From NCBI GenBank assembly GCA_024434165.1, contig QMIW01000039.1, forward strand, positions 1 through 64,000: a DNA stretch of 64,000 nt, given 5' to 3'. The DNA comes from Chloroflexota bacterium (GTDB taxonomy: Bacteria; Chloroflexota; Anaerolineae; Anaerolineales; Villigracilaceae). Made by a program: the position numbers and the translations under genes. The notes below the pieces were generated by a model. That model saw nothing but the letters and a program-made list of their open reading frames with translations. It had not been told where the DNA came from and ran no database searches. This document shows, one piece after another, positions 7,177-57,793 of this stretch. Position 1 is the stretch's first letter, and each line of letters starts with the position of its first letter.

Positions 7177-9375
7177 ATGAACCTAAAAAAATTCCTTGTC
7201 TTGCTCGGGGTTCTGGTAGTGCTTGGCGCAGTATTAGCGGCATGCGGCGGCACGGAACCCACCGAAGCAATCACTGAAACAGCGACGGAAGAAGCTCCCG
7301 CTGTTCCAGTTCCCGACACCCCCTACCTGGCAGAATGGCAAGGCTCCGGTCACGCTGATGTGGCGAGCGAACCCTTCCGCCATTGGGACGGGGATGATCC
7401 CGCCGAAGTTCCCACCTTCTGCGCCAAGTGTCACAGCACCGCCGGGTATCAGGATTTCCTCGGCGTGGATGGCTCTGAAGCCGGCACAGTGGATGCCGCC
7501 GTTCCCGCCGCCGAAGCCCAAGGCGTGCAGTGTGCGGCGTGCCACAATGCCGGGACCATTTCCAAGACCACAGTCGTGTTCCCCTCCGGCGTCGAGATCA
7601 CAGCCGGTGATGACGTCCGCTGTATGGAATGTCATCAGGGACGCGAGTCCAAGGTCAGTGTGGACGCGCAGATCGAAAAGTTCGGCGTTGCCGACAAGCC
7701 CGATGACACTGTCGCCCCCATCAAGGACGACCAGGGCAATGATGTCTTCTTCGGATTCCGCAACGTCCATTACTATGCCGCAGCCGCAACCCTCTACGGC
7801 GGCATGACGCACGGCGGGTATGAATACGAAGGCATGACCTACGACGCCAAGAACGAACATGTCGAAGGGTACAACACCTGCACAGGCTGTCACGACCCGC
7901 ACACCCTCGAGGTGAAGGTCGAACAGTGTGCGTTCTGCCACGAAGATGTTGCCAGCGTGGACGACCTCAAGAACATCCGCATGGTCAGCAGCAACCCGGA
8001 CTATGACGGCGACGGCGATGTGGAAGAAGGCATGTACTACGAAATCGAAGGCTTGCAGCAAGCCCTGTACGCCGAGATTCAGAAGTACGCCGCCGATACG
8101 GCTGGCGCGGCAATCGTGTACGAATCCGCCGCCTACCCCTATTGGTTCACAGACACCAATGCCAACGGCACCGTGGATGAAGGCGAAGCGGTCTTCCCGA
8201 ATGCCTACTCAACCTGGACCCCGCGCCTGCTCAAAGCCGCCTACAACTACCAGGTCTCTCTGAAGGACCCCGGCGCGTTTGCCCATGGCAACAAGTACAT
8301 CGTCCAACTGCTCTTCGACTCGATCGCCGACATTGGCGGTGACACCAGCGCACTCGCCCGCACCGATGCGGGACACTTCGCCGGCGACACCCTGCCCTTC
8401 CGCGATTGGGACTTCGATGACAAAGGCAACCCCAACTATATCGTTCCGTTTGGCTGTGTGAAATGCCACACGGCGGAAGGCGTTCCGACCTTCCTGAAAA
8501 GCGGCGGCTCCGTGGTCGTGACCGGCACCGGCACCACCGTCACCACGGGTCTCACCTCCGCTCCTTCGAGCAATGGCTTCCAATGCTCCACCTGTCACAA
8601 TGAAGAAGCCTGGCCCGAGCGCTATACCGTCGCTTCCGTCACCTTCCCCAGCGGCAAGACCGTTTCCTTCGGCGGCAAGGATGCCGACGGCAAATTCATT
8701 GCCGACGACTCCAACCTGTGCATCCTCTGCCACATGGGGCGCGAATCCACCACCAGTGTGAACAACGCCCTGCGCGGCAAGGACGCCGACGCCGTTGATC
8801 CGGGCATCCGCTTCAAGAACATTCACTACTTTGCCGCGGGCGCAACCATCTTCGGCGGAGAAACCCTCGGCGCCTACCAGTACGAGGGCAAGGAGTATGT
8901 GGGACAGAACATGCACGCCGACGAAGCAGCGGGCAAGCTGAACAAGTGCGCCGACTGTCACGACGTCCACGCGCTTGAGCCCAAGGTCGAAGCCTGCGAG
9001 ACCTGTCACGATACCACCGACCCGACCGCCATCCGTGAGACCGATGTGGATTACGACGGCGATGGCGACGTGACCGAAGGCATCAAGGGCGAGATTGACA
9101 CCCTGGCAGAAGCACTCTATGCCCAGATCCAGACCTACGCAGCCGCGAACGGCGGCGAGCTCAAGTACGACGGGCACGCCTATCCGTACTTCTTCGGAGC
9201 CGACGGCAAAGCCTACGCCGCCTGGACCCCGCGCCTGCTCCGCGCCGCATTCAACTACCAGTACAGCCAGAAAGACCCCGGCGCTTACGTGCACAACCCG
9301 AAATACATCATCCAGATCCTGATCGACTCGATCGAAGACCTGGGTGGCAGCGTGAGCGCGTACACGCGCCCGTAA
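7177..9375 (+). CDS. Decahaem c-type cytochrome lipoprotein with duplicated five-haem module
   Basis: A 732-residue exported lipoprotein. ATG 7177 is preceded by AAGGAG, and the lipobox is LAAC. There are ten CxxCH haem motifs: CAKCH, CAACH, CMECH, CTGCH, CAFCH in the first half and CVKCH, CSTCH, CILCH, CADCH, CETCH in the second. The halves are a tandem duplication: each has QGRES or MGRES, an NVHYYAA or NIHYFAA stretch, YDGDGDV and a C-terminal TPRLL block. YDGDGDV and DTNANGTVDEGE resemble calcium-binding loops. It probably conducts electrons at the outer face of the cell. It leads the plus-strand cytochrome genes but has its own promoter and terminator. No substrate-reducing site is recognisable. 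Confidence 0.9.
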   Translation: MNLKKFLVLLGVLVVLGAVLAACGGTEPTEAITETATEEAPAVPVPDTPYLAEWQGSGHADVASEPFRHWDGDDPAEVPTFCAKCHSTAGYQDFLGVDGSEAGTVDAAVPAAEAQGVQCAACHNAGTISKTTVVFPSGVEITAGDDVRCMECHQGRESKVSVDAQIEKFGVADKPDDTVAPIKDDQGNDVFFGFRNVHYYAAAATLYGGMTHGGYEYEGMTYDAKNEHVEGYNTCTGCHDPHTLEVKVEQCAFCHEDVASVDDLKNIRMVSSNPDYDGDGDVEEGMYYEIEGLQQALYAEIQKYAADTAGAAIVYESAAYPYWFTDTNANGTVDEGEAVFPNAYSTWTPRLLKAAYNYQVSLKDPGAFAHGNKYIVQLLFDSIADIGGDTSALARTDAGHFAGDTLPFRDWDFDDKGNPNYIVPFGCVKCHTAEGVPTFLKSGGSVVVTGTGTTVTTGLTSAPSSNGFQCSTCHNEEAWPERYTVASVTFPSGKTVSFGGKDADGKFIADDSNLCILCHMGRESTTSVNNALRGKDADAVDPGIRFKNIHYFAAGATIFGGETLGAYQYEGKEYVGQNMHADEAAGKLNKCADCHDVHALEPKVEACETCHDTTDPTAIRETDVDYDGDGDVTEGIKGEIDTLAEALYAQIQTYAAANGGELKYDGHAYPYFFGADGKAYAAWTPRLLRAAFNYQYSQKDPGAYVHNPKYIIQILIDSIEDLGGSVSAYTRP

Positions 9376-9390
9376 GCCGTACTGCAACAA

Positions 9391-9425
9391 AAAGATGGCG
9401 GGCAGGAATGCCTGCCATCTTTTTT
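9391..9425 (+). terminator. Intrinsic terminator after the decahaem gene
   Basis: GATGGCGGGCA pairs with TGCCTGCCATC (one mismatch) and a T run follows. It separates the decahaem gene from the next cytochrome gene. Confidence 0.85.
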
Positions 9426-9515
9426 AATCATACAATTTGTGTGATATTAGGCACTTCATTCGTCTGACAACCCCCCGTAAAATTGGGGCAATTCCCCCAT
9501 GACATTATTTGGGAA

Positions 9516-9521
9516 TATAAT
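9516..9521 (+). promoter_or_regulatory. Probable -10 box for the nonahaem/cytochrome b operon
   Basis: A perfect TATAAT lies 41 nt before the ATG of the next gene. No good -35 hexamer is found at 16-18 bp, which would fit an activator-dependent promoter. A partial TGTGA half-site lies at about 9437. Confidence 0.45.
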
Positions 9522-9562
9522 AACAGGAATTATCCGAATTTACTTTATCGAAGGAGAATGTG

Positions 9563-10732
9563 ATGCACCAAAGGAAAACAATTCGCCCGCCTCACATTTG
9601 GACCGTGAGCCTGCTCCTCGGACTTGGGCTTTTCGTCCTCGCCCTGGCAGTGTTTGCTTCGCCCGCCCAAGCAGCCCCCACAGCCGGTCCCGCGATGCAG
9701 GACAACAAACCCTCGAACGATTTTTGTCTCGCCTGCCACCAGCAGGAAGGACAGGATAAAACCCTGGGCAGCGAATCCCTCCCGGTCACCATCAACCCCA
9801 CGCAGTTCGGCTTGTCCATTCACGCCGAAGAAGGGCTGCTCTGTGTGGACTGTCACACCGCCATCAGCGATTACCCACACCCCGACGTCAAAGCGAGGTC
9901 CATCCGCTCTTACCAATTGACCTTCACAGAGACATGCAAGGAATGTCACGAAGACCAATACCAGGCCGCGCACGACAGCGTCCATCAAGCCGCCCTGGAT
10001 GCGGGCAATGAAAACGCCCCGATCTGCGCCGACTGCCATAACCCCCACACGCAGGGACGCGTCATCGGCAAGGAAAGCGGACAGTTGACCATCGCCGCCC
10101 GCAGAGACGTGCCCGCCACCTGCGCCAAGTGTCACACCGACGTGTACGATACCTACAAAAGCAGCGTGCATGGCAGCGCCCTCGCCGATGGCAACACCGA
10201 CGTGCCCACCTGCACCGATTGTCACGGTGTACACAACATTGGCGACCCCGCCGCCGCCGCCTTCCGCAACAACACCCCTGCCCTCTGCGCCGACTGTCAC
10301 GACAACGAAGAGATCATGAACAGGTACGGCGTCTCCACCGACGTGCTCGAAACCTACGTGGCAGACTTCCACGGCACCACCACGACCCTCTTTGAACAGC
10401 AGTTTCCCGGACAGGCTATCAACACCGCCGTCTGCACCGACTGCCACGGCGTGCACGACATCTCCAAGCCCGACAACCCCGAAACCGGCATCGCCATGCA
10501 GGAAAACCTGCTCGCAAAATGCCAGCGCTGCCACCCCGATGCCACCGCCAACTTCCCCGCCGCGTGGATGGGTCACTACCAGCCCAGCCCGGAGCATTAC
10601 CCCATCGTCTATTACGTCAACCTGTTCTACAAAATCTTCATCCCCGCAGTGCTTGGCGGCATGATCCTCTTTATTCTCACCGATATATATCGGCGCATCC
10701 TCGACCGCGTCAAAGGAGTCAGGCGCTCATGA
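9563..10732 (+). CDS. Membrane-anchored nonahaem cytochrome c
   Basis: A 389-residue exported cytochrome with an N-terminal signal (hydrophobic stretch ending ASPAQA), nine CxxCH motifs (CLACH, CVDCH, CKECH, CADCH, CAKCH, CTDCH, CADCH, CTDCH, CQRCH) and one C-terminal membrane helix followed by a basic tail. Abundant His residues outside the motifs suggest bis-His ligation. ATG 9563 is used because AAGGAG sits at correct spacing; a GTG one codon earlier is less likely. The stop overlaps the cytochrome b start (ATGA), so the two are surely co-translated and probably form a quinol-oxidising cytochrome bc-like complex like the Cbc complexes of Geobacter (inference from gene arrangement). Confidence 0.9.
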   Translation: MHQRKTIRPPHIWTVSLLLGLGLFVLALAVFASPAQAAPTAGPAMQDNKPSNDFCLACHQQEGQDKTLGSESLPVTINPTQFGLSIHAEEGLLCVDCHTAISDYPHPDVKARSIRSYQLTFTETCKECHEDQYQAAHDSVHQAALDAGNENAPICADCHNPHTQGRVIGKESGQLTIAARRDVPATCAKCHTDVYDTYKSSVHGSALADGNTDVPTCTDCHGVHNIGDPAAAAFRNNTPALCADCHDNEEIMNRYGVSTDVLETYVADFHGTTTTLFEQQFPGQAINTAVCTDCHGVHDISKPDNPETGIAMQENLLAKCQRCHPDATANFPAAWMGHYQPSPEHYPIVYYVNLFYKIFIPAVLGGMILFILTDIYRRILDRVKGVRRS

Positions 10733-11580
10733 ACAAGATAACACAAACCTACCTGCGCTTCCCGCTTGCGCGCCGCATCGAACATTGGATGATGATGCTC
10801 TCTTTCACCGTGCTCGGTCTCACCGGCCTGCCGCAGCGTTTCCCCGACGCCGGTCTTTCACAAGCCATCCTGGGCGCTTTGGGCGGCATCGAAGGTTTGC
10901 GCACCATTCACCACACCGCCGCCATCGTCATGATGTTCGGCACCGCCTGGCATATCCTGGTGATGGGGTACAGCGTCTTCGTCCTGCGCGACAAGATGTC
11001 CATGCTGCCCACCTTGCAGGATGCGAAAGATGCGATTCAGGCGTTGCTGTACAACATTGGGCTCGCCAAAACCTACCCGCAAATGGGGCGCTACACCTTT
11101 GAAGAAAAAATGGAATACTGGGCGTTCGTCTGGGGCGCGGTGGTCATGGGCATCACCGGCTTCATGATGTGGAACCCGATCACCGCCACCCGTTACCTGC
11201 CCGGCGAGTTCGTGCCCGCCGCAAAGGCGGCGCACGGCAACGAAGCCGTGCTGGCGGTGCTTGCCATCATCATCTGGCACATGTACGGCGTACACATCAA
11301 ACGCTTCAACAAAGCCATGTTCACCGGCAGGATGACCGAAGAGGAAATGCTCCACGAACATCCGCTCGAACTGGCGGATATCAAAGCCGGGATCACAGAC
11401 CGCCGTCCCGACGCGGCGACGCTTCGCAAGCGCAAGATGATCTACTACCCCATCGCCGCCGTCCTGACCCTGGGCATGCTCGCCGGAATCTTCGGCTTTA
11501 TCAACGCCGAAGAGACCGCCATCACCACCGTTGCCCCCATCACGGAATCGGCGCCGCAAGACCCCGGAACGACGCCATAA
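10729..11580 (+). CDS. Cytochrome b (b561/FdnI-type) membrane subunit
   Basis: A 283-residue di-haem b subunit of the formate dehydrogenase gamma / Ni-Fe hydrogenase b type. Candidate haem ligands are in RRIEHW (helix 1), TIHHTAA and TAWHILVMG (helix 2), and IIIWHMYGVHIKRF (helix 4). A fifth helix near the C-terminus is followed by a short Pro/Thr tail. The start overlaps the upstream cytochrome stop by 4 nt. It should pass electrons from the quinol pool to the nonahaem cytochrome. An intrinsic terminator follows directly. Confidence 0.88.
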   Translation: MNKITQTYLRFPLARRIEHWMMMLSFTVLGLTGLPQRFPDAGLSQAILGALGGIEGLRTIHHTAAIVMMFGTAWHILVMGYSVFVLRDKMSMLPTLQDAKDAIQALLYNIGLAKTYPQMGRYTFEEKMEYWAFVWGAVVMGITGFMMWNPITATRYLPGEFVPAAKAAHGNEAVLAVLAIIIWHMYGVHIKRFNKAMFTGRMTEEEMLHEHPLELADIKAGITDRRPDAATLRKRKMIYYPIAAVLTLGMLAGIFGFINAEETAITTVAPITESAPQDPGTTP

Positions 11581-11592
11581 CGTTGGAAACGA

Positions 11593-11629
11593 AACTGGGT
11601 GTGTGTTGCGCACGCCCGGTTTTTGTTTT
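11593..11629 (+). terminator. Intrinsic terminator after cytochrome b
   Basis: An 11-bp stem (AACTGGGTGTG with CACGCCCGGTT, two G-U pairs) is followed by TTTTGTTTT. Confidence 0.75.
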
Positions 11630-11680
11630 ACAGAAACGCCTCCCAACCCAGTTGTTCAGTTTTGCATATCGGAGGGCAAA

Positions 11681-13375
11681 ATGAAAATTCGGGAACGAGT
11701 AAAAAAGTTCTTCTTTCCTGCGCCGGATTCGCCGCGCTGGATCCTTCTGCTCCCATACATCACACTGATCGTTGCGGCGCTGGCGACTGCCTTCGGGGGA
11801 ATCCATGCGTGGGAATACACCAACTCCCCGGCGTTTTGCGGGACCACCTGCCACACCATGCCCCCGCAAAACACCGTCTATAAAGAGTCGCCGCACTCGA
11901 ATGTCACCTGCGAGGAATGTCACATCGGGCGCGCCTCCTTCCTCGATCAGGCTTCCCGAAAAACACAGGGCATCAAGGAGACCTATTACCAGATCTTCAA
12001 ACTCTACGAGTTTCCGATCCGCGCCAAGGCTCTGCGCCCCTCCCGCGACACATGCGAGACCTGCCACCGCCCCGAAACCTTTTCAGACGACAGCCTGCGC
12101 CGCATCAACCGCTTCGAGAGCGACCTTGAAAACACCGCCACGACCATCTACCTCATCATGAAAACCGGCGGCGGGGATGCGCGGCAGGGAAACGCCCGCG
12201 GCATTCACTGGCACATCACCAACAAGATCTTGTTCTACGCAGACGATGAGTTGAGCCAGGAAATTCCCTACGTCCGCGTGTACAACGAGGATGGCACGTA
12301 CATCGAATATACGGATATCGAGTCCGGCTTCGACCCGTCCACCGTGAAGGAAGAGGACCTCAAACAGATTGACTGTGTCACCTGCCATAACCGCGTCACC
12401 CATAACTTCCAGCCTCCGTACAAATCGGTGGATCAATCCATGGCGGCGGGGCGGATTGACCCCTCCATCCCTTTGATTCATGCCAAGGCGGTGGAGATCC
12501 TTTCCGCCGAATACGCCTCACGCGACGAGGCAATGAAAGCGATTGCAGACCTGGAAGAGGATTACAAACGCAACCTGTTCGATTACTACAGCCGGAACGG
12601 GGAGAAAATCAAAAGCGCGGTCGCCGAGATTCAAGCCATCTACGACCGGACGGTTTTCCACGACCAGAAAATTGATTGGACCACCTACCCCAACAACCTC
12701 GGACACATCGAATCGCCGGGTTGTTTCCGCTGTCATGATGGCAGGCACCTGAACGAAAACGAAGAAGCGATTCGCCTCGAATGTAATATCTGTCACGCCA
12801 TTCCGGTGGTGGCGGGCGTGGACGATTTCGTGACCAACATCGAAATCAGCAGCGGACCCGAACCCGAGAGCCATCTCAACCCCAACTGGATCAGCCTGCA
12901 TAACCAGGCGATCGGTCCCTCCTGCGCGAACTGCCATTCCACCAAGGACCCTGGCGGCACGAGCAATACTTCGTTCTGTTCGAACAGCGCATGTCACGGC
13001 AGCGTCTTCACCTTTGCGGGGTTTGACGCCCCCGCCTTGCGCGAGATCATCAAGAGCCAGCTGCCGCCGCCCGAGCCCGCGCTCGAAGTCCCGCCGCTGA
13101 CCGGCGACCCCACATACGAAAACTACATCGGCATCCTGTTCACGGTCAAATGCACGGAATGCCACACGGAAGGCGAAGCCGCGCCGGAGGGTCTCGATCT
13201 CTCTTCCTACGGCGCCGCCATGCGCGGCGGCGATAACGGACCGGTCATTCTCCCCGGCAGCCCGGCAAACAGTCCGCTGGTCATCGTGCAATCCGAAGAC
13301 CACTTCGTCAACTTTACGGCGGAGGAACTTCAGAACGTGATTGATTGGATCAATAATGGAGCGCCTGAAAAGTAA
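11681..13375 (+). CDS. NapC/NirT-like multihaem cytochrome with atypical haem motifs
   Basis: A 564-residue protein with an N-terminal membrane anchor and the NapC/NrfH-like start of the soluble part (ending CHTMPP). Seven canonical CxxCH motifs are present (CEECH, CETCH, CVTCH, CFRCH, CNICH, CANCH, CTECH). Two variants have longer spacing: CGTTCH (CX3CH, the first site) and CSNSACH (CX4CH, near residue 435). The C-terminal 80 residues resemble the cytochrome c domain seen in planctomycete proteins (GLDLSSYGAAMRGG, LPGSPANSPLV). GGAGGG precedes ATG 11681. It could oxidise quinol and hand electrons to the other cytochromes. A separate transcript is likely, since terminators lie on both sides. 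Confidence 0.85.
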   Translation: MKIRERVKKFFFPAPDSPRWILLLPYITLIVAALATAFGGIHAWEYTNSPAFCGTTCHTMPPQNTVYKESPHSNVTCEECHIGRASFLDQASRKTQGIKETYYQIFKLYEFPIRAKALRPSRDTCETCHRPETFSDDSLRRINRFESDLENTATTIYLIMKTGGGDARQGNARGIHWHITNKILFYADDELSQEIPYVRVYNEDGTYIEYTDIESGFDPSTVKEEDLKQIDCVTCHNRVTHNFQPPYKSVDQSMAAGRIDPSIPLIHAKAVEILSAEYASRDEAMKAIADLEEDYKRNLFDYYSRNGEKIKSAVAEIQAIYDRTVFHDQKIDWTTYPNNLGHIESPGCFRCHDGRHLNENEEAIRLECNICHAIPVVAGVDDFVTNIEISSGPEPESHLNPNWISLHNQAIGPSCANCHSTKDPGGTSNTSFCSNSACHGSVFTFAGFDAPALREIIKSQLPPPEPALEVPPLTGDPTYENYIGILFTVKCTECHTEGEAAPEGLDLSSYGAAMRGGDNGPVILPGSPANSPLVIVQSEDHFVNFTAEELQNVIDWINNGAPEK

Positions 13376-13522
13376 TTCGTAACCGATGCTGCGCAGTTTG
13401 CCCGCGCGCAAAATTTATTTTGCGATACTGGTTGCCAAAATCAATTTTGAAACTTCATCATGTTGCTTTGCACGGACGGGATGAATCTCGCGGCACGAGG
13501 CTGACGGCAGCCGAAACAATGC

Positions 13523-13558
13523 AAAAGAGCCGCCCGCAATGGAACGGCTCTTTTTGTT
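13523..13558. terminator. Bidirectional terminator between the two cytochrome gene sets
   Basis: AAAAGAGCCG pairs with CGGCTCTTTT, with an A tract before and a T run after. The rest of the 13376-13573 gap shows no gene. Confidence 0.85.
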
Positions 13559-13573
13559 TTCAGAAGTTACGCA

Positions 13574-14839
13574 TCACGCATTTCGGATTGCCTCCCCCGC
13601 CTGCACCGTCACCACGTCGTGTTCTTCGCTGGCAATGCGGTGATCCACGATCCGCAGGTATTTCACGCCGACGGAGAACGCCAGCAGACCGAAGGCGATG
13701 ATGCCGATGCCGGTCACCCATTCGACCAGCGCGGGCGTGTAGGTGGTGTAGTTCACGATCATCTCGCCGGGGGTGTACGGGATGACCGCCAGGAAGCCGA
13801 CGATGTTCGTATCGAAGCGGAAGGCAACCACGCCGCCCACGATCATTGCCAGGGCGAGCATCCGCCAAAGGGGAGTCTGACGCGCGGGATGATAGAGCAG
13901 CAAAATGGTGGGAAGAAGCGCACCCACGAGCATTTCACCGACCCAGAAGTTGAAGGAGAGCGTCCCCCTGGTGAGCAGTTCGAATCCTTCCGTCCTGCCG
14001 GGTTCGTAGGTGTAGGTTTGGGAGAGCCAGTCCCAGAAGCGCCAGTAGAGGTAGGCGATCATCATGTAGCCGAGGAACCGGGCAACGCGCTCGATTAACA
14101 CATCGTTGACTTTGGCTTTGGAGGTGAGCCGCGCCGCCAGCATGGACGCCAGCAGGGTGAGCGCAATTCCGCCGAGGATGGCGGTGAACATGAACAGTAC
14201 CGACATCTCCGGGCGATACCAGATCGGGCGGGCTTTGATGACGCCGTAAACCGCGCCCAGCGAGGATTGGTGCAGACTGGACAGCGCCAGGCCGAATATG
14301 GCAAGCACCGGCGCGTAGTGGTGAAGGTGTTCCATCCTTGCGGAAAGACGCGGGAACTTTTTTCGCAGCCATTCGAACGATGCCAGGATGGGCATGACCT
14401 CGAGCAGGAGCACGGTGAAGTACAAGCCCACGCACATGGTCACTTCCCAGAGCAGGGAGTGGGTGTTCCAGAAAACGAACGACTTCCAGAAACGATCGGG
14501 GCGCCCGATGTCGAGCAGGAGCGCCATCATCGCCATGCTGTAACCGGTGAAGCCGATGAAGGTGGCGGTGCGCGCAATGGGTTCGTAGCGTTTGAGCCCA
14601 AAGAGATAGACCGCCGCGCACATGCTGAACGCGCCCGCGCTCAAGGCGATGGCGGAGAGGTCAATGGTGATCCACAAGCCCCAGGGCACGAGGTCGGTCA
14701 GATTGGTGATGACCAGTCCCTTCCAAAAGACCAGGATGCCGCCGATAAGCGCCGAGAACAGAATCACACCGAGGAAGGCGAGCCATAGACCCCAGGGGGT
14801 GAAGATGTTTTCACGGATGGTTCTAATGATGGTTTTCAT
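13574..14839 (-). CDS. nrfD: NrfD/PsrC-type integral membrane quinol oxidoreductase subunit
   Basis: A 421-residue protein with about ten membrane helices of the NrfD/PsrC/HybB family. Recognisable patches include LTDLVPWGLWITIDLSAIAL and FWNTHSLLWEVTMCV. Such subunits bind menaquinol and work with an iron-sulphur partner, here the gene just upstream (1-nt gap). GGAGGG precedes the ATG. No molybdopterin catalytic subunit follows, so with the octahaem protein it resembles a reduced Nrf/Qrc-type complex that moves electrons between quinol and cytochromes. Direction of flow cannot be read. The symbol denotes the family only. Confidence 0.9.
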   Translation of the reverse strand: MKTIIRTIRENIFTPWGLWLAFLGVILFSALIGGILVFWKGLVITNLTDLVPWGLWITIDLSAIALSAGAFSMCAAVYLFGLKRYEPIARTATFIGFTGYSMAMMALLLDIGRPDRFWKSFVFWNTHSLLWEVTMCVGLYFTVLLLEVMPILASFEWLRKKFPRLSARMEHLHHYAPVLAIFGLALSSLHQSSLGAVYGVIKARPIWYRPEMSVLFMFTAILGGIALTLLASMLAARLTSKAKVNDVLIERVARFLGYMMIAYLYWRFWDWLSQTYTYEPGRTEGFELLTRGTLSFNFWVGEMLVGALLPTILLLYHPARQTPLWRMLALAMIVGGVVAFRFDTNIVGFLAVIPYTPGEMIVNYTTYTPALVEWVTGIGIIAFGLLAFSVGVKYLRIVDHRIASEEHDVVTVQAGEAIRNA

Positions 14840-14840
14840 G

Positions 14841-15614
14841 TCAGCCCTCCACGACCCTGTTTTCGGTCACGGGCAGGTAATACACTCGCGGATTGGTCCC
14901 CAGATTCTCGCGCAGGCGGTAGGAAGGATGTTTCTTCAAAACCTGGCTGACGTTTGAGTTCGGGTCGTTGAGGTCGCCGAAGATGCGCGCTCCCGTCGGG
15001 CAGCCGACCACACAGGCGGGGGTCGCGGCGGCATCCACGCCGGGCTTGAGCCCAAGCGACATGCCGCGGTCAATGCGCTGGTAGCAGAACGAGCATTTCT
15101 CCGGCACCCCGCGCGGACGGCGTTCCACATCCGGGTTGCCCCATTCGGGCACGGCGGGATTCTCGCCGGTGAAGGCTTCCCAGTTGAAGGCGCGCGCGTC
15201 GTACGGACACGCCACCATGCAATACCGGCAGCCGATGCACTTGTCATAGTCCATCATCACGATCCCATCGTCGCGGTAGTAACTGGCGCCCACCGGGCAG
15301 ACCTCCACGCAGGGCGCGTTTTCGCACTGCATACAGGGGCGCGGCAGGTAGACCATCCTGCCATCCACTTCGCCGGCTTCCAGCACTTTATTCCAATCCA
15401 GGTCCGGGTTGATGTCGTTGTTGGCGTGGCATACCAGGTTGCATTGTCCGCAGCCGGTGCACTTGGATTGGTCAATGACCATCGCCCACTGGTGTTCGCC
15501 TTGCGCACCGCCGGAGGCTTCCGCCTCCTGAACCAGGCGCGTGCCGGCGGCGACCGCCAGTCCAACCGCGGAGAGTTTGATGAAATCGCGGCGGTTGAAT
15601 TTATTTTCCGTCAT
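14841..15614 (-). CDS. Tat-exported four-cluster ferredoxin subunit (NrfC/PsrB/HybA-like)
   Basis: A 257-residue protein with a twin-arginine signal (NRRDFIKLSA), so it is exported folded. Four Cys groups for [4Fe-4S] clusters are visible: CTGCGQCNLVC, CMQCENAPCVEVC, CIGCRYCMVAC, and CSFC paired with CVVGCPTGA. The layout matches the electron-transfer subunits of NrfC, PsrB and HybA. GGAGGAGG precedes the ATG, which overlaps the end of the octahaem gene by 14 nt. It should wire the NrfD-type subunit to the octahaem cytochrome. Confidence 0.93.
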   Translation of the reverse strand: MTENKFNRRDFIKLSAVGLAVAAGTRLVQEAEASGGAQGEHQWAMVIDQSKCTGCGQCNLVCHANNDINPDLDWNKVLEAGEVDGRMVYLPRPCMQCENAPCVEVCPVGASYYRDDGIVMMDYDKCIGCRYCMVACPYDARAFNWEAFTGENPAVPEWGNPDVERRPRGVPEKCSFCYQRIDRGMSLGLKPGVDAAATPACVVGCPTGARIFGDLNDPNSNVSQVLKKHPSYRLRENLGTNPRVYYLPVTENRVVEG

Positions 15615-16581
15615 GGCGTACCTCCTCCGATTTCCTCAGCGCGGCGCGATACCCCTTCTCGAGCCAGGGCGCCAGCAGCATGCCTGCCGCGAGCCCCACC
15701 AGGGCGGCAATGCCTGCATAACCGATGGGCGAAACCGGGGTCGGTTCCGGTGTGATGGAAGATAACTCCGCGGCAGGCGTTGGCGCGGCGGCGGTCGGCT
15801 CCACAGCGATGGCGGTGGCGGATTGTTTCGTCGCCGCGGCTTCACCGTCGCCGTGCATTTGCTCGGCATGGCACGCCGTGCAGGTCTGGATGCTGGCTTT
15901 GAACGAGTGATCGGCGACCTGATGAATCTCGTTATCGCCGCTCTCCAGATGTTCGAGGTGGCAGTCAATGCAGTTGATGCCCTCCTTGCTGTGCACAGAA
16001 TACGGGAAGTCCATGCTGGCTTCCTCGTGACAGCTGATGCACAGGTTGGAGGCATCTTTGAAAGTCTGTTCCTTCAAGTTGACCGTGACTTTCAAAGAGG
16101 CGTTGTGCGGGTCGTGGCAGTTGGTGCAGTCCATGCCCGCCGCGTAGTGGGTGCTTCCCTCCCATTCCTCGAAACCAAAACGCGCGTCGGTGTGGCACGT
16201 TCCGCACGTCCCGCCGGTCACATCTGCACTCATGGTGGTGCGGGGGTGTTCGCCGCCTTCATCCACGTGGCAGGCGGCGCAGGTCACGCCGTCCTCCGCC
16301 CAGGTGCCGGTGGTTTCATCGTAGCCGGTCACATGGCAGGCAAGGCAGGCGGTGGGCTTGCCCTGGTCCGTCCAGGCATTGACAAAAATGGGATCGTTGG
16401 TGGCATTCCCATGCGCGCCGTTTTGCCAGCTCATCTGGAACGCCTCATGACAATCGGCGCAGGTTTCCTCACCGGCGGCGGGCGGGGTTGCATCCTGCGC
16501 CGAAGCGGCAACGAGAGTAACGCCCGCAAACACCAGGGCGACCAGCATGGCAAACAAAAACTTTTCAAAACGAGAGAACAT
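15601..16581 (-). CDS. Membrane-anchored octahaem cytochrome c
   Basis: A 326-residue exported cytochrome. ATG 16581 has AGGAGG upstream, a signal peptide ending ASAQ, then eight CxxCH motifs (CADCH, CLACH, CAACH, CGTCH, CTNCH, CISCH, CIDCH, CTACH). A low-complexity Ala/Pro/Thr linker and a C-terminal membrane helix with a charged tail follow. It is not the octahaem nitrite or hydroxylamine enzyme: it is too small and the catalytic CXXCK or cross-link features are absent. Together with the FeS and NrfD genes it resembles QrcA plus QrcC/QrcD without QrcB. Probably an electron carrier docked to that membrane complex. Confidence 0.88.
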   Translation of the reverse strand: MFSRFEKFLFAMLVALVFAGVTLVAASAQDATPPAAGEETCADCHEAFQMSWQNGAHGNATNDPIFVNAWTDQGKPTACLACHVTGYDETTGTWAEDGVTCAACHVDEGGEHPRTTMSADVTGGTCGTCHTDARFGFEEWEGSTHYAAGMDCTNCHDPHNASLKVTVNLKEQTFKDASNLCISCHEEASMDFPYSVHSKEGINCIDCHLEHLESGDNEIHQVADHSFKASIQTCTACHAEQMHGDGEAAATKQSATAIAVEPTAAAPTPAAELSSITPEPTPVSPIGYAGIAALVGLAAGMLLAPWLEKGYRAALRKSEEVRHDGK

Positions 16582-16595
16582 TATTGAACCTCCTA

Positions 16596-16943
16596 TTAAG
16601 CGTGGGATATGGCGGGTTTCGCTTCGGGAACCGGCGCGGCGAGGAAAACCTCGCACTCCAGGCACGCTTCCCGCAAATAACCGTTGGACAGGCGGTGCGT
16701 CTGCCAGCAGGGTATGCCGCTTTCGGCGGCTTTGGTTTTGATCTCCTCCACAGAAAGACCCTGCTCCTTCCAGCAGGGCGTTTCATCCTTCACCAACAGG
16801 CTGCGTTCCAGTTCGGCTTCCTTTTGCCAGCGCGCATCCAGCCGGCGCAGGGCAATCACGACCAATACAGTCAGCAGAAGAGGAACGCCCAGGCGAAGCA
16901 GAAGACCGACCACAAAGGCCAGAATGGGCGTCAGCGTATCCAT
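16596..16943 (-). CDS. Small membrane protein with Cys-rich tail, unknown function
   Basis: A 115-residue protein not recognised. Residues 5-30 form one membrane helix, followed by a charged segment and a tail with five Cys (PCWKE, IPCWQTHR, CLEC). Two CW motifs and a terminal CxxC could bind metal or form disulphides. It lies 14 nt before the octahaem gene and 8 nt after the stop of the 40-residue gene, so it belongs to the same operon and may help assemble or anchor the complex. ATG 16946 and GTG 16955 are other starts; GAGG favours 16943 or 16946. Confidence 0.7.
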   Translation of the reverse strand: MDTLTPILAFVVGLLLRLGVPLLLTVLVVIALRRLDARWQKEAELERSLLVKDETPCWKEQGLSVEEIKTKAAESGIPCWQTHRLSNGYLREACLECEVFLAAPVPEAKPAISHA

Positions 16944-16951
16944 CATGCACC

Positions 16952-17074
16952 TCACGACTTCAGCCAGTAATTGGCGTTATGACGGCGGAACCATTCACCC
17001 GCCAGCAGGAGCAACCCGAACGGGATGATCAGGCGGACCAGGAACAGCAGCAGGATAATCTCAATACCGTTCAT
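16952..17074 (-). CDS. 40-residue single-helix membrane protein, first gene of the NrfD operon
   Basis: A short reading frame with AAGGAG seven nt before its ATG. It encodes one hydrophobic helix (residues about 4-25) followed by a basic, aromatic tail ending NYWLKS. It is directly downstream of a good promoter and leads the octahaem/FeS/NrfD operon. Its size and topology fit an accessory subunit of a respiratory complex, which is inference. No family is recognised. Confidence 0.65.
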   Translation of the reverse strand: MNGIEIILLLFLVRLIIPFGLLLLAGEWFRRHNANYWLKS

Positions 17075-17277: not shown

Positions 17278-17308
17278 CCTGCAACCTGTAACCTGTAACC
17301 TGCAACCC
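17278..17308. repeat. Octamer tandem repeat beside the response regulator stop codon
   Basis: About four units of CCTGTAAC/CCTGCAAC directly abut the minus-strand stop. The rest of the 17131-17277 gap shows no gene. Confidence 0.8.
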
Positions 17309-17958
17309 TACGCCTTGATAATCCCCTTCCGAATCGCATACCGTACCAGTTCGGAGCGCGAATGCAGGCTCAACTTGCGCATGATGTTCTCGCGGTGACG
17401 TTCCACCGTTTTCGGGCTGATGACCAGCGCGGCGGCGATCTCATCGTTGCTTGCGCCCTCCGCCAGTTGGGTCAACACCTCGCGTTCGCGTTCGGTCAGA
17501 CCGTCGAGGCTCACCTTTTCCTCCGCCGTCCGCTCGGCATTGAAGAAGTCGCGCACGAGCAGTTTGGCGAGGGATGGATACAGATACACCTCGCCCTTTG
17601 CCGCCGCGTTGATGGCGGTGATCAACTCTTCGGGCGCGGCGCGTTTGGGTACATAGCCCGAGGCGCCTGCGTTCAGCATTTGGAAGAAGTATTCCTCGTC
17701 CTCGTGAATGGTCAGCGCCACCACGCTCACTTCCGGGAATTTCGCCTTGATGACGCGCGTGGCTTCGATGCCGGTCTTGTCGGGCAGACCGATATCCATC
17801 AGGATGACGTCGGGTCGGACGCGCTCGGTCTCGGTCAGCGCCTCTGCCGCCGAACCAGCCTCGCCCACGATTTCCATATCCTTCTGCCCGCTGATGAGCA
17901 TCTTCAACCCCGAACGCACCACCGCGTGGTCGTCCACCAAAAGCAATCGAATCGTCAT
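17308..17958 (-). CDS. NarL/FixJ-family response regulator
   Basis: A 216-residue two-domain regulator. The receiver carries the phosphorylation site Asp55 (VILMD) with acidic DD at 9-10 and a conserved Lys in VPKR. The C-terminal LuxR-type helix-turn-helix includes LTEREREVLTQLAEGASN and SPKTVERHRENIM. Its start overlaps the kinase stop (ATGA), which marks it as the cognate partner. The position next to the cytochrome operons, like NarL beside nitrate genes, suggests control of respiration, but targets are not shown. Confidence 0.95.
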   Translation of the reverse strand: MTIRLLLVDDHAVVRSGLKMLISGQKDMEIVGEAGSAAEALTETERVRPDVILMDIGLPDKTGIEATRVIKAKFPEVSVVALTIHEDEEYFFQMLNAGASGYVPKRAAPEELITAINAAAKGEVYLYPSLAKLLVRDFFNAERTAEEKVSLDGLTEREREVLTQLAEGASNDEIAAALVISPKTVERHRENIMRKLSLHSRSELVRYAIRKGIIKA

Positions 17959-19421
17959 ATCGGTTCTCCCGTCTTCACCGCTTCATAGGGTATGACCGCT
18001 TCCACTTCCGTGCCATAATCGGGGCGCGAATGGATTTCCACCGTCCCGCCCAGCAGCGCGGCGCGTTCGCTCATGCCCGCCAGCCCAAGCGAGACCCGCC
18101 CGCCCCGATTTCGGACCGCGTCCATGTCGAAGCCGACGCCGTTATCGCGCACCAGAATATGCACCGATTTCTCCCGATATTCCAGGTGAATGCCCGCGTT
18201 CGTGGCGCGCGAATGTTTGATGATGTTGTTCATTGCCTCCTGGATGATGCGGAACACGGCGATCTTGACCGTTTCATCGAGCGGGCGTTCCTCGCCGGAA
18301 ATATCCAGCCGGATGCCCAGGTTGAACATTTCGTGCAGGCGGCTCGTGTACCACCTCAATGTGGAGGATAAGCCCAAATCGTCCAGGTGGGCGGGCCTGA
18401 GGTCCGCAATGATGCGCTGCAGTTCGCGCAGGGCATCCGAGGTGAGGGATTGCAGCTGGTCCAGCGTGTCGCGTTTCTCCGATCTGCTTTTTATTTCGTC
18501 GGAAAGTCCGCGCAGACCCATGCCGATGGCAGTAAGCGACTGGCCCGTCTCATCGTGCAGGTCGCGCGCAATGCGCTGGCGTTCCGCCTCCTGCGCCGCC
18601 ACCACCTTGCGGAATAACTCCGCCCGCAGGGCTTCCCGTTCGCGCGCTTCGTGCAGACGCGCCTCCTGCAGGTCTGCAATCTTGCGGTCGCTTTCCACCT
18701 GGAACGCCCGCAAAAAACGGATGACGAACACCGCCGCAAAGACCGCCGTCACCGCGCGCAGGAGTTGGATGGGAAAACCGAAGACCTCAAGAAATAGATC
18801 TGAGTTGATGATGGTGGAGGGCGGCAGTGCGCTTGGTTTTGTGAAGAGCTGCCCCACCAGGCTGTACCAGCCGAACGCCACCGAAGCCCACAGACTGTCG
18901 CGCCCGAAGCGCACCAGCCCGGCGCGGCGGAATGCGCGCTGCTGGACGACCAGCCCCGCCGCGGCGAGCAGACCCGCCGGTATCGCCAGCGAATAGCGCG
19001 TCCACACATCGGTGATGTCGGCGATGGCTTCGGTCGGATACATATTCCTGAATTGGAGCAAGCCCGCCACCCACACCGCCTCCAGCGCGAGCGGAATGAT
19101 GAGACTCACCCGCCAGGTGGATTCGCTCCCCAGAACAAGGTAGGAGCCGAATGCCGCCAGCGAGAGAAAGGAGAACGCCAGGATCGAAAGTTCGATGACC
19201 GGCATCAGCGCGAAAAAGACGCTGTCGAAATGCCCCATGACTTTGAACATTTCCAGCCACTCGTGCGCCGCATGGACCAGCCCAAACCCCGCCAGCGGGC
19301 GCAGCGCCATGCGCAGGCGCGCATCGGTGGAACGCCCGCCCTCCATTGCCACCAACAGACCCATGCTGAAGAAAGCGAGTCCGTAAAAAAAGTAAATGAC
19401 AATGAAAGGGATGGGGGTCAT
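17955..19421 (-). CDS. Membrane sensor histidine kinase, HisKA_3 (NarX/DesK) class
   Basis: A 488-residue kinase from ATG 19421. The N-terminal 235 residues form about seven membrane helices with no large outside domain. A coiled coil (residues 240-285) leads to the HisKA_3 box RIARDLHDETGQSL with the phospho-acceptor His289, then an HATPase domain (DNGVGFDMD; SLGLAGMSERA). The multi-helix input suggests sensing within the membrane, perhaps redox or quinone state (inference). ATG 19421 lies 28 nt after the stop of the zinc-ribbon gene. An upstream in-frame start would overlap that gene and add an Arg/Ala-rich stretch, so it is rejected. Confidence 0.9.
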   Translation of the reverse strand: MTPIPFIVIYFFYGLAFFSMGLLVAMEGGRSTDARLRMALRPLAGFGLVHAAHEWLEMFKVMGHFDSVFFALMPVIELSILAFSFLSLAAFGSYLVLGSESTWRVSLIIPLALEAVWVAGLLQFRNMYPTEAIADITDVWTRYSLAIPAGLLAAAGLVVQQRAFRRAGLVRFGRDSLWASVAFGWYSLVGQLFTKPSALPPSTIINSDLFLEVFGFPIQLLRAVTAVFAAVFVIRFLRAFQVESDRKIADLQEARLHEAREREALRAELFRKVVAAQEAERQRIARDLHDETGQSLTAIGMGLRGLSDEIKSRSEKRDTLDQLQSLTSDALRELQRIIADLRPAHLDDLGLSSTLRWYTSRLHEMFNLGIRLDISGEERPLDETVKIAVFRIIQEAMNNIIKHSRATNAGIHLEYREKSVHILVRDNGVGFDMDAVRNRGGRVSLGLAGMSERAALLGGTVEIHSRPDYGTEVEAVIPYEAVKTGEPI

Positions 19422-19449
19422 GGGCGTTCGGAAAGGGGCGAAGCGCTTC

Positions 19450-20355
19450 CTATTCCTCCTGGCGGCGCAGGCGCGCGCCGCAGGTACGGCAGAAGCGGTC
19501 GCCCGCTTTGGCGCGCGTGCCGCACTGCGGACAGTAATGTTCCGCACTGCCCTCTTCGGATTCGTCGCGTGAATGACTGCGGCGGCGCGGACGTTTTGAA
19601 GTGAAGCGCCCCGCCTGCCAGTAATAGATAAAGCCGCCCAAAATCATCACCACGCCCAACCCGCCGATGATGTACGGCAGGGTGTTGTTCAAGGAAACCC
19701 TGCCCGGCGTATTTTCATCCACAGGCGCGGCGGGCTGAACCTCGAACCTGGAAGCGCTCAACGCATCGGTGGTCTTCTCGTAACTCAACTGAAACGAAAA
19801 ACGTTCCCCTGCCGGGACGGCGCCCACCGCGGAAAAGTAATATTGCATCTCATCGGGATGTACGCCGTCGTCCTGCAACGGAAGCGAACTGGTAAATTGG
19901 GTCGCGTCGAACGGCACCTGGAAGATGACCGTCAGTTCTTCGACCGCATAGTCGCCTGTCCACTCGTACGAGAACGAACGCGCGGGACCTTCCTTTATCA
20001 ATTGCGGGTCGTAATATTCCAGTTGAATCGCAGGTCCTGTGACGTTTACGGTCAGCACCAGCCCCTCGTCTGCGATGCGGGTCGTATATTCCACCCCTTG
20101 ATCTGTTACGGTTTCCAGGGTTTGTCCGATGGCAATGGTGTGCAGAGAGGCGTCAGCCGGGAGGCGGAAATCCATCTGGACGGGAAATGAAGGCGCATTG
20201 ACAAGCGCATGATAGATCACCAGCATATCCGCCCTGTCGTATTCGGGCCACAGGCTGATATCCAAACGTTGAATCGTGACTTGTCCCTGTGCGGCGGCGG
20301 CATGGGGGAAGAGCAGGGCAATCCCCAGCACGATCATCAAAACCCATTTGCGCAT
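19450..20355 (-). CDS. Exported membrane protein with C-terminal zinc ribbon
   Basis: A 301-residue protein. ATG 20355 is preceded by GGAGG and followed by a signal peptide (residues 1-22, ending AAAAQG). A beta-rich extracellular domain of about 200 residues follows, then one membrane helix (about 230-250), a basic stretch (RPRRRSHSR) and a cytoplasmic zinc ribbon (YCPQCGTRAKAGDRFC and RTCG). No family beyond the zinc ribbon is recognised. It lies just before the sensor kinase and may be co-transcribed with it, so a role in signal input is possible but unproven. Confidence 0.75.
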   Translation of the reverse strand: MRKWVLMIVLGIALLFPHAAAAQGQVTIQRLDISLWPEYDRADMLVIYHALVNAPSFPVQMDFRLPADASLHTIAIGQTLETVTDQGVEYTTRIADEGLVLTVNVTGPAIQLEYYDPQLIKEGPARSFSYEWTGDYAVEELTVIFQVPFDATQFTSSLPLQDDGVHPDEMQYYFSAVGAVPAGERFSFQLSYEKTTDALSASRFEVQPAAPVDENTPGRVSLNNTLPYIIGGLGVVMILGGFIYYWQAGRFTSKRPRRRSHSRDESEEGSAEHYCPQCGTRAKAGDRFCRTCGARLRRQEE

Positions 20356-57408: not shown

Positions 57409-57793
57409 GGGGATGACAGGCTTCGACGGGAGAGGCTGGTCCCGGAATGCGAGCCGAGAGCGCACCGAACTCGATAAATCAGTGCAACCATTAAGTGCCA
57501 ACAGCACTTCCTATGCTGCTATGCCCCTCGCCGCCTAGTGTGGTGATTGCATAACAGTTGCGGCGCCAGTCGCCGCACGTCCGCCGTCCCCGCTCTCCAC
57601 CCGGTGACGGACCGGGCGAGACAAAGGTGCGAGTGCCGCGCGCGATTCTGCTAAGCGCGCGAAAGACCAGCAGATGGTCACAGGCTTACCAGCCCGCCGG
57701 GATGCCTGTGATGACGACTAACGGCAGGCTACGCTCGTAGAGTTCCGAGGGTCGAATCTTTCGGACCCGGGTTCAATTCCCGGCATCTCCACC
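57409..57793 (+). ncRNA. ssrA: Transfer-messenger RNA (tmRNA)
   Basis: This 385-nt one-piece tmRNA rescues stalled ribosomes. The 5' end GGGGATGACAGGCTTCGAC and the 3' end (TTCAATTCCCGGCATCTCCA) are the conserved tRNA-like halves; GGGGATG pairs with CATCTCC as the acceptor stem. The tag frame starts at GCC 57497 and encodes ANSTSYAAMPLAA before TAG 57536. The end PLAA differs from the common ALAA. The 3' CCA is not fully encoded (ACC then T). A promoter lies upstream and a hairpin downstream. Confidence 0.96.

Follow-up and report, generated by a model that had tools for sequence, protein, structure and literature searches.

The export of electrons from quinones to the outside of the cell has been described chiefly in Geobacter and in a small number of Gram-positive bacteria. 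Little is known of respiration in the Anaerolineales, filamentous bacteria that abound in wastewater and sediments. We analysed an island of multihaem cytochrome genes at positions 7177-17074 of a 64,000-nucleotide stretch of DNA (the whole stretch being called the window here) from a Chloroflexota bacterium of the family Villigracilaceae. The closest described systems include ImcH, the family of which is defined by a NapC/NirT-like N-terminus, an atypical CX3CH motif by a transmembrane (TM) helix and five to nine CX2CH motifs (PMC6295460), the complexes with the Cbc4 and Cbc5 layouts (PMC11434368) or the Nhc and Qrc layouts (PMC8076601), and OcwA of Thermincola, a terminal reductase at the cell surface that keeps two open haems (PMC6703420). 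Within the phylum, an ImcH homologue of Anaerolinea thermophila, with one TM helix and a CX3CH motif, has already been published (PMC6295460), the isolate Ardenticatena maritima is capable of both anodic and cathodic extracellular electron transfer (EET) (PMC5808234), and Anaerolineales genomes are rich in multihaem cytochromes, from which a potential for EET has been suggested (PMC7399161). No EET gene set described for Anaerolineae came up in a search of the literature. We conclude that the island probably couples menaquinol oxidation to a surface cytochrome and EET, in a presumably monoderm member of the Chloroflexota. It would provide a concrete, testable EET gene set for Anaerolineales, with counterparts of the Geobacter quinol-oxidation routes side by side.

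Gene content of the island

The host genome comprises 4.4 Mb in 173 contigs, and the window corresponds to contig C107 in the numbering used for the analysis. The genes A-B-C-D on the + strand and the operon I-H-G-F-E (first gene I) on the - strand converge at about 13.5 kb, as follows:

7177-9375, + strand: A, decahaem lipoprotein, predicted to lie at the surface, with two tandem pentahaem halves of apparent NrfA fold (10 CXXCH, lipobox)
9560-10732, + strand: B, nonahaem cytochrome c with a signal peptide and a C-terminal membrane helix (start GTG 9560 or ATG 9563)
10729-11580, + strand: C, FdnI/HydC-type dihaem cytochrome b (start overlapping the stop of B)
11681-13375, + strand: D, ImcH-like cytochrome with one N-terminal TM helix, a NapC/NrfH head (CX3CH-T-M; PF03264, E 1.6e-10) and a C-terminal PSCyt1 domain (PF07635, E 8e-8)
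13574-14839, - strand: E, NrfD/QrcD-type quinone-binding membrane subunit (PF03916, E 4.9e-29)
14841-15614, - strand: F, Tat-exported ferredoxin with four [4Fe-4S] clusters, DsrO/QrcC/TtrB type (16 invariant cluster Cys)
15601-16581, - strand: G, octahaem cytochrome c with a C-terminal membrane helix (8 CXXCH)
16596-16946, - strand: H, about 117 aa, single TM helix (conserved in about 20 related operons)
16952-17074, - strand: I, 40 aa, single TM helix (tblastn matches upstream from H in about 20 related loci)

Motif counts for each open reading frame (ORF) gave a total of 36 c-type haem sites, in proteins with 10 (A), 9 (B), 9 (D) and 8 (G) haems. All the haem-motif Cys and His residues of these four proteins are kept in every aligned sequence from relatives, and the sites are therefore real rather than due to chance. 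An initial annotation, made from the sequence alone, had listed about 36 haem sites in such proteins, one cytochrome b, an NrfD-type subunit and a four-cluster ferredoxin, in two convergent gene sets. These claims were borne out by the counts, by the matches to PF01292 and PF03916, by the 16 Cys of F and by the position of the junction, which carries a terminator-like stem-loop. The second gene set is larger than first noted, as the two small conserved membrane ORFs H and I also belong to it. Genes B and C overlap, as do F and G, and the gap between E and F is a single base, so these pairs look like translation-coupled operons. The reported lack of a local terminal reductase was confirmed: Pfam and NCBIfam profile scans identified no NrfA, molybdenum (Mo) or other catalytic subunit in 7177-17074.

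Protein A

The two halves of A share 40% identity across 361 aa (E 1.9e-65), indicating a tandem duplication. In an alignment of 18 sequences, the lipobox Cys23 was invariant, from which a location at the cell surface is predicted to be probable. In the same 18 sequences, the 10 motif His residues are accompanied by exactly 10 invariant non-motif (spare) His residues, five per half. In each half, motifs and spare His residues are arranged in the same order as in the host genome's own NrfA, except that the CXXCK of NrfA is replaced by CXXCH and that an extra invariant His lies between motifs 3 and 4 (residue 198 in the first half and 550 in the second). The AlphaFold2 model of A (pLDDT 78, pTM 0.74) matched the S-layer undecahaem cytochrome OmhA of Carboxydothermus with a Z score of 10.2 and many NrfA chains with Z scores of 8-10; no unrelated chain came close. 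The simplest reading is that A is a duplicated NrfA-type unit with a capped catalytic haem, and capping would extend to every haem of the protein. Given the loss of CXXCK and the presence of one invariant spare His per haem, we read A as a wire rather than an enzyme. If this reading is true, A would clearly exemplify the conversion of a reductase fold into a wire through duplication and the capping of the active-site haem.

Protein A shares with OcwA and OmhA a multihaem architecture, in A probably directed to the surface, an NrfA-like pentahaem core and a presumably monoderm cell. However, OcwA consists of a c554-like tetrahaem unit fused to a pentahaem unit, whereas A has two tandem pentahaem units, a lipobox and apparently no open haem. 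Because two haems are open in OcwA, the likeness of A to OcwA and OmhA is one of fold and probable location, and does not extend to haem chemistry. It is unrelated to MtrC and OmcA by fold match.

Candidate quinone-reactive modules

The nine CXXCH motifs of B are accompanied by nine invariant spare His residues. Protein C matches PF01292 (Ni_hydr_CYTB; E 1.6e-15) and, at 58 bits (under the cutoff of 115.85), TIGR01583; its invariant His19, 61, 75, 169 and 184 are enough for two b-haems. By layout, B and C share with CbcL/CbcBA (Cbc5) of Geobacter the combination of nine c-haems and a HydC/FdnI-type dihaem cytochrome b, but CbcL is a single polypeptide, whereas B and C are separate overlapping ORFs. 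The C homologues of several relatives (L127:9035-10258, L081, L083 and L085) have a C-terminal haem-c PSCyt1 domain absent from the C protein of the window.

The nine haem sites of D comprise seven CXXCH, one CX3CH (CGTTCH, residues 53-58) and one CX4CH, with motifs invariant in relatives and with nine invariant spare His residues, plus Met60 in the NrfH-type CX3CH-T-M. Protein D matched the NrfH structure 2j7a (E 1.7e-12); its own predicted structure was unusable (pLDDT 52) and was discarded. Like ImcH of Geobacter, D has a NapC/NirT-like head, a CX3CH motif beside a TM helix and several CXXCH motifs, and is encoded in a c-cytochrome cluster. However, ImcH has three N-terminal TM helices, whereas D has one, together with a CX4CH site and a PSCyt1 tail, and its motifs and layout suggest that it should be called ImcH-like only. 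The named relatives with the most similar D (82%) include Candidatus Villigracilaceae AMX68 and other Chloroflexota metagenome-assembled genomes (MAGs). The distribution of D in the phylum is patchy, with homologues in 22 of 301 genomes at E 1e-50.

Among the NCBIfam models, QrcD matched E best (212.8 bits, under the cutoff of 570), and DsrP reached 56 bits of the 350 required. A profile search of the PDB with E gave no match. Residues D60, Y100, D110, S128 and Y140 are invariant in E and correspond, at a constant offset of 10, to D70, Y110, D120, S138 and Y150 of QrcD, a mapping made by offset of positions rather than by alignment. Changes to D70, Y110, S138 and Y150 of QrcD fully compromised Qrc function (PMC13059093). 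Protein F scored 216 bits with DsrO (over the cutoff of 200), 190 with QrcC (under the cutoff of 400) and 147 with TIGR03149 (NrfC). The eight haems of G are accompanied by seven invariant spare His residues and an eighth present in 93% of sequences, and the best profile match of G was OcwA (6i5b, E 6.2e-14). Protein H has a conserved cysteine pattern, CW...PCW...C(L)xC, and no match in Pfam or NCBIfam; H and I possibly represent subunits of the NrfD module that have yet to be described.

By layout, G-F-E shares with Cbc4 (CbcSTU) of Geobacter and NhcABCD of Desulfovibrio a multihaem cytochrome, a four-cluster FeS protein and an NrfD-family subunit, with no catalytic subunit; it differs from them in that G is octahaem and C-terminally tethered, and in the additional small membrane proteins H and I. 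The likeness to QrcABCD lies in E and F, for which QrcD and QrcC are the closest and second-closest models, respectively, and in the key QrcD residues, which are apparently kept, but the island has no ORF of the QrcB molybdopterin fold and has another cytochrome. As for DsrMKJOP, F passes the DsrO model, but E fails DsrP and there is no match to DsrM or DsrK. With NrfABCD and NrfHA, the island shares NrfC/NrfD-type subunits, the NrfH head of D and the NrfA-like fold of A, but it has no catalytic NrfA, A lacks CXXCK and all scores are below the curated cutoffs.

These comparisons modify three claims of the initial annotation. It had counted two quinol modules, whereas we find three quinone-reactive candidates (B-C, D and E-F). 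It had noted a resemblance to the Cbc complexes and Qrc without a match to either; this holds for Qrc, given the lack of QrcB and the sub-cutoff scores for QrcC and QrcD, but each module has a Geobacter-type counterpart in layout. Finally, in place of the single undescribed complex proposed, the cluster comprises at least three separable modules, with ImcH, CbcL/CbcBA and Cbc4 as their putative counterparts, and subsets of these modules stand alone in relatives.

Conservation and gene order in relatives

The comparison of gene order that had been suggested as a check supported the arrangement: in most same-genus genomes with E, A-B-C-D converges on E-F-G-H, and a NarL-type regulator and a histidine kinase lie beside E-H. 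The regulatory genes of the window are assigned as follows:

17308-17958, - strand: NarL/LuxR-type response regulator (PF00072, PF00196; synteny with H-G-F-E)
17955-19547, - strand: HisKA_3-type membrane histidine kinase, paired with the regulator (PF07730, PF02518; synteny)

Gene B was present in 18 of the 19 genus members with E and in 5 of the 18 without it (Fisher p = 2.7e-5, uncorrected for kinship); for genomes at least 90% complete, the corresponding counts were 12/12 and 3/12. In the relatives G007 and G008, variants of A, G-F-E and B-C-D form one co-directional set, which argues that the two halves of the island work together. Conversely, H-G-F-E occurs alone with a two-component system in G016, G019 and G022, and G021 has A, D and a variant G-F-E without B-C; the modules are therefore separable.

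We also examined 39 loci of D, taken from a large number of Chloroflexota MAGs, that had flanks of 5 kb or more on both sides. Gene B lay within 8 kb of D in 25 of these loci, A in 20, and E or F in 13, in several gene orders and across families. Homologues of A, B, C and D were also found in an Ardenticatenaceae MAG (L167).

Several relatives have an operon for cytochrome c maturation next to the cluster. Such genes lie beside the multihaem cluster in L127, L131, L133, L135, L136, L142, L151, L156 and L163, identified as CcmF and CcmH by Pfam in L131 and by size and order in the others. A neighbouring gene in relatives that had been considered as oxidase subunit I (11-13 TM helices, about 670-750 aa) proved by Pfam to encode CcmF, with CcmH beside it. 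In L066, L133, L147, L148, L156, L157, L159 and L180, genes for a Rieske protein, a 219-aa cytochrome b6 and a protein of about 700 aa lie beside the D cluster. According to Pfam on the L133 copy, the last of these combines the C-terminal part of cytochrome b with several cytochrome c domains (7 CXXCH), in an unusual bc-type complex. Proteins with six or eight haems are encoded next to D in L119, L120, L121, L125, L126, L134, L135, L131 (12431-13471) and L151 (8640-9950); in L121, L131 and L151, a lipobox and a GPxGP-type stretch precede the cytochrome. These six- and eight-haem proteins are possible alternative surface conduits replacing A.

Proposed function and alternatives

For EET driven by menaquinol, the dihaem cytochrome b C would pass quinol electrons to the membrane-tethered nine-haem B, as in CbcL/CbcBA, and D, like ImcH, would oxidise quinol at its NrfH-like head and relay the electrons along its own haems. 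As in Cbc4, E would bind quinone, and electrons would pass through the four FeS clusters of F to the tethered eight-haem G. From the tethered cytochromes, they would cross the cell-wall space to lipoprotein A and leave for minerals, shuttles, electrodes or partner cells, the apparent capping of the catalytic haem of A making for conduction instead of catalysis. We infer the flow from module to module, its outward direction and the external acceptor. A cell with several entry modules that differ in midpoint potential might use acceptors of different potential, as in Geobacter.

The claim of the initial annotation that EET is the simplest reading is supported, for a quinone/multihaem-cytochrome system that is recognisable but unclassified and has no terminal reductase nearby. 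If true, it would reveal a distinct version of the Geobacter-type electron-export capability in an uncultured Anaerolineales bacterium. We propose more tentatively, with a confidence falling a little short of even, that this is a separate, Chloroflexota-type EET system, with a new ten-haem conduit (A), three quinone modules and an I-H-G-F-E operon with two undescribed small subunits.

The main rival is electron uptake, in which A would take electrons from Fe(II), partner cells or cathode-like minerals, and the NrfD/FeS module would reduce menaquinone, in a Qrc-like manner, for nitrate, nitrite or oxygen reductases. The model rankings of E and F and the apparent retention of the QrcD residues are compatible with this direction, NarGHI, NrfAH and haem-copper oxidases in the genome could use the quinol, and cathodic EET in A. 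maritima is coupled to nitrate (PMC5808234). However, D has the ImcH signature, ImcH homologues were confined to Fe(III) reducers in one survey (PMC6295460), and two of the three modules are of the quinol-oxidase type by layout. We regard uptake as unlikely.

The genome encodes an NrfA with an adjacent NrfH, outside the island (G000:C126), a Mo enzyme of NarG size with NarH-, NarJ- and NarI-like genes downstream from it, other Mo enzymes, and two haem-copper oxidases. Mo-pterin oxidoreductases were found in 60 of 61 relatives regardless of the island, and an Mo enzyme was accordingly rejected as its partner; both Mo enzymes and oxidases occur in every genus member searched and do not, therefore, track the island. 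In the host genome, a 998-codon ORF with three CXXCH lies directly downstream from a Mo-enzyme/FeS/membrane-anchor gene set on contig C61 (L105:3261-6266).

A detached Nrf-type system, with the island feeding a soluble-acceptor reductase elsewhere, above all NrfA, and with G-F-E as the equivalent of NrfBCD, appears decidedly improbable. G-F-E has the NrfB-C-D layout, F matches TIGR03149, and NrfA was found in 16 of the 19 genus members with E versus 8 of the 18 without it (p = 0.014), but this co-occurrence is weak and uncorrected for kinship, and three genomes with the island, all of them incomplete or fragmented assemblies, yielded no NrfA. Moreover, NrfH adjoins NrfA here and in most relatives in which both were located, and the scores fall far short of the cutoffs (NrfC, 147 versus 378; NrfD, 40 versus 348). 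The initial annotation had named a catalytic subunit elsewhere, consistently co-occurring with these genes, as the finding that would speak against it; NrfA tracks them weakly and has an NrfH of its own, and was rejected as the missing subunit.

A bc1-like role, as quinol:cytochrome c oxidoreductases feeding haem-copper oxidases for oxygen respiration, is the least probable alternative: such oxidases are present in 53 of 61 relatives, including the host genome, and some relatives encode beside D a Rieske/cytochrome b complex in which subunit IV bears haem, but the oxidases occur in all the genus members searched, with or without the island, the island contains none, and a ten-haem surface lipoprotein would be needless for such a role.

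Several observations weigh against our preferred reading, the export of menaquinol electrons through A. NrfD/FeS modules can run in either direction, as Qrc reduces quinone. The distal ligands of A are assigned putatively, from conservation and motif order, with reference to NrfA distal-ligand His residues that we take to be established. The fold match of A reaches only about Z 10, and Foldseek alone gave a best E of 0.16, with none lower. None of A, B, C, E, F and G lies near D in 9 of the 39 D loci. Finally, the surface cytochrome studied in A. maritima is a seven-haem protein, as opposed to the ten-haem A.

Other features of the window

Three terminator-like sites were identified by pattern matching, their frequency as a class being no higher than in shuffled sequence:

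9401-9416, + strand: stem-loop with a T tail, between A and B
11591-11623, + strand: stem-loop between C and D (pattern match only)
13523-13554, - strand: stem-loop at the convergent D/E junction (pattern match only)

Further downstream, the window contains one additional RNA gene:

57409-57793, + strand: tmRNA gene, tag ANSTSYAAMPLAA

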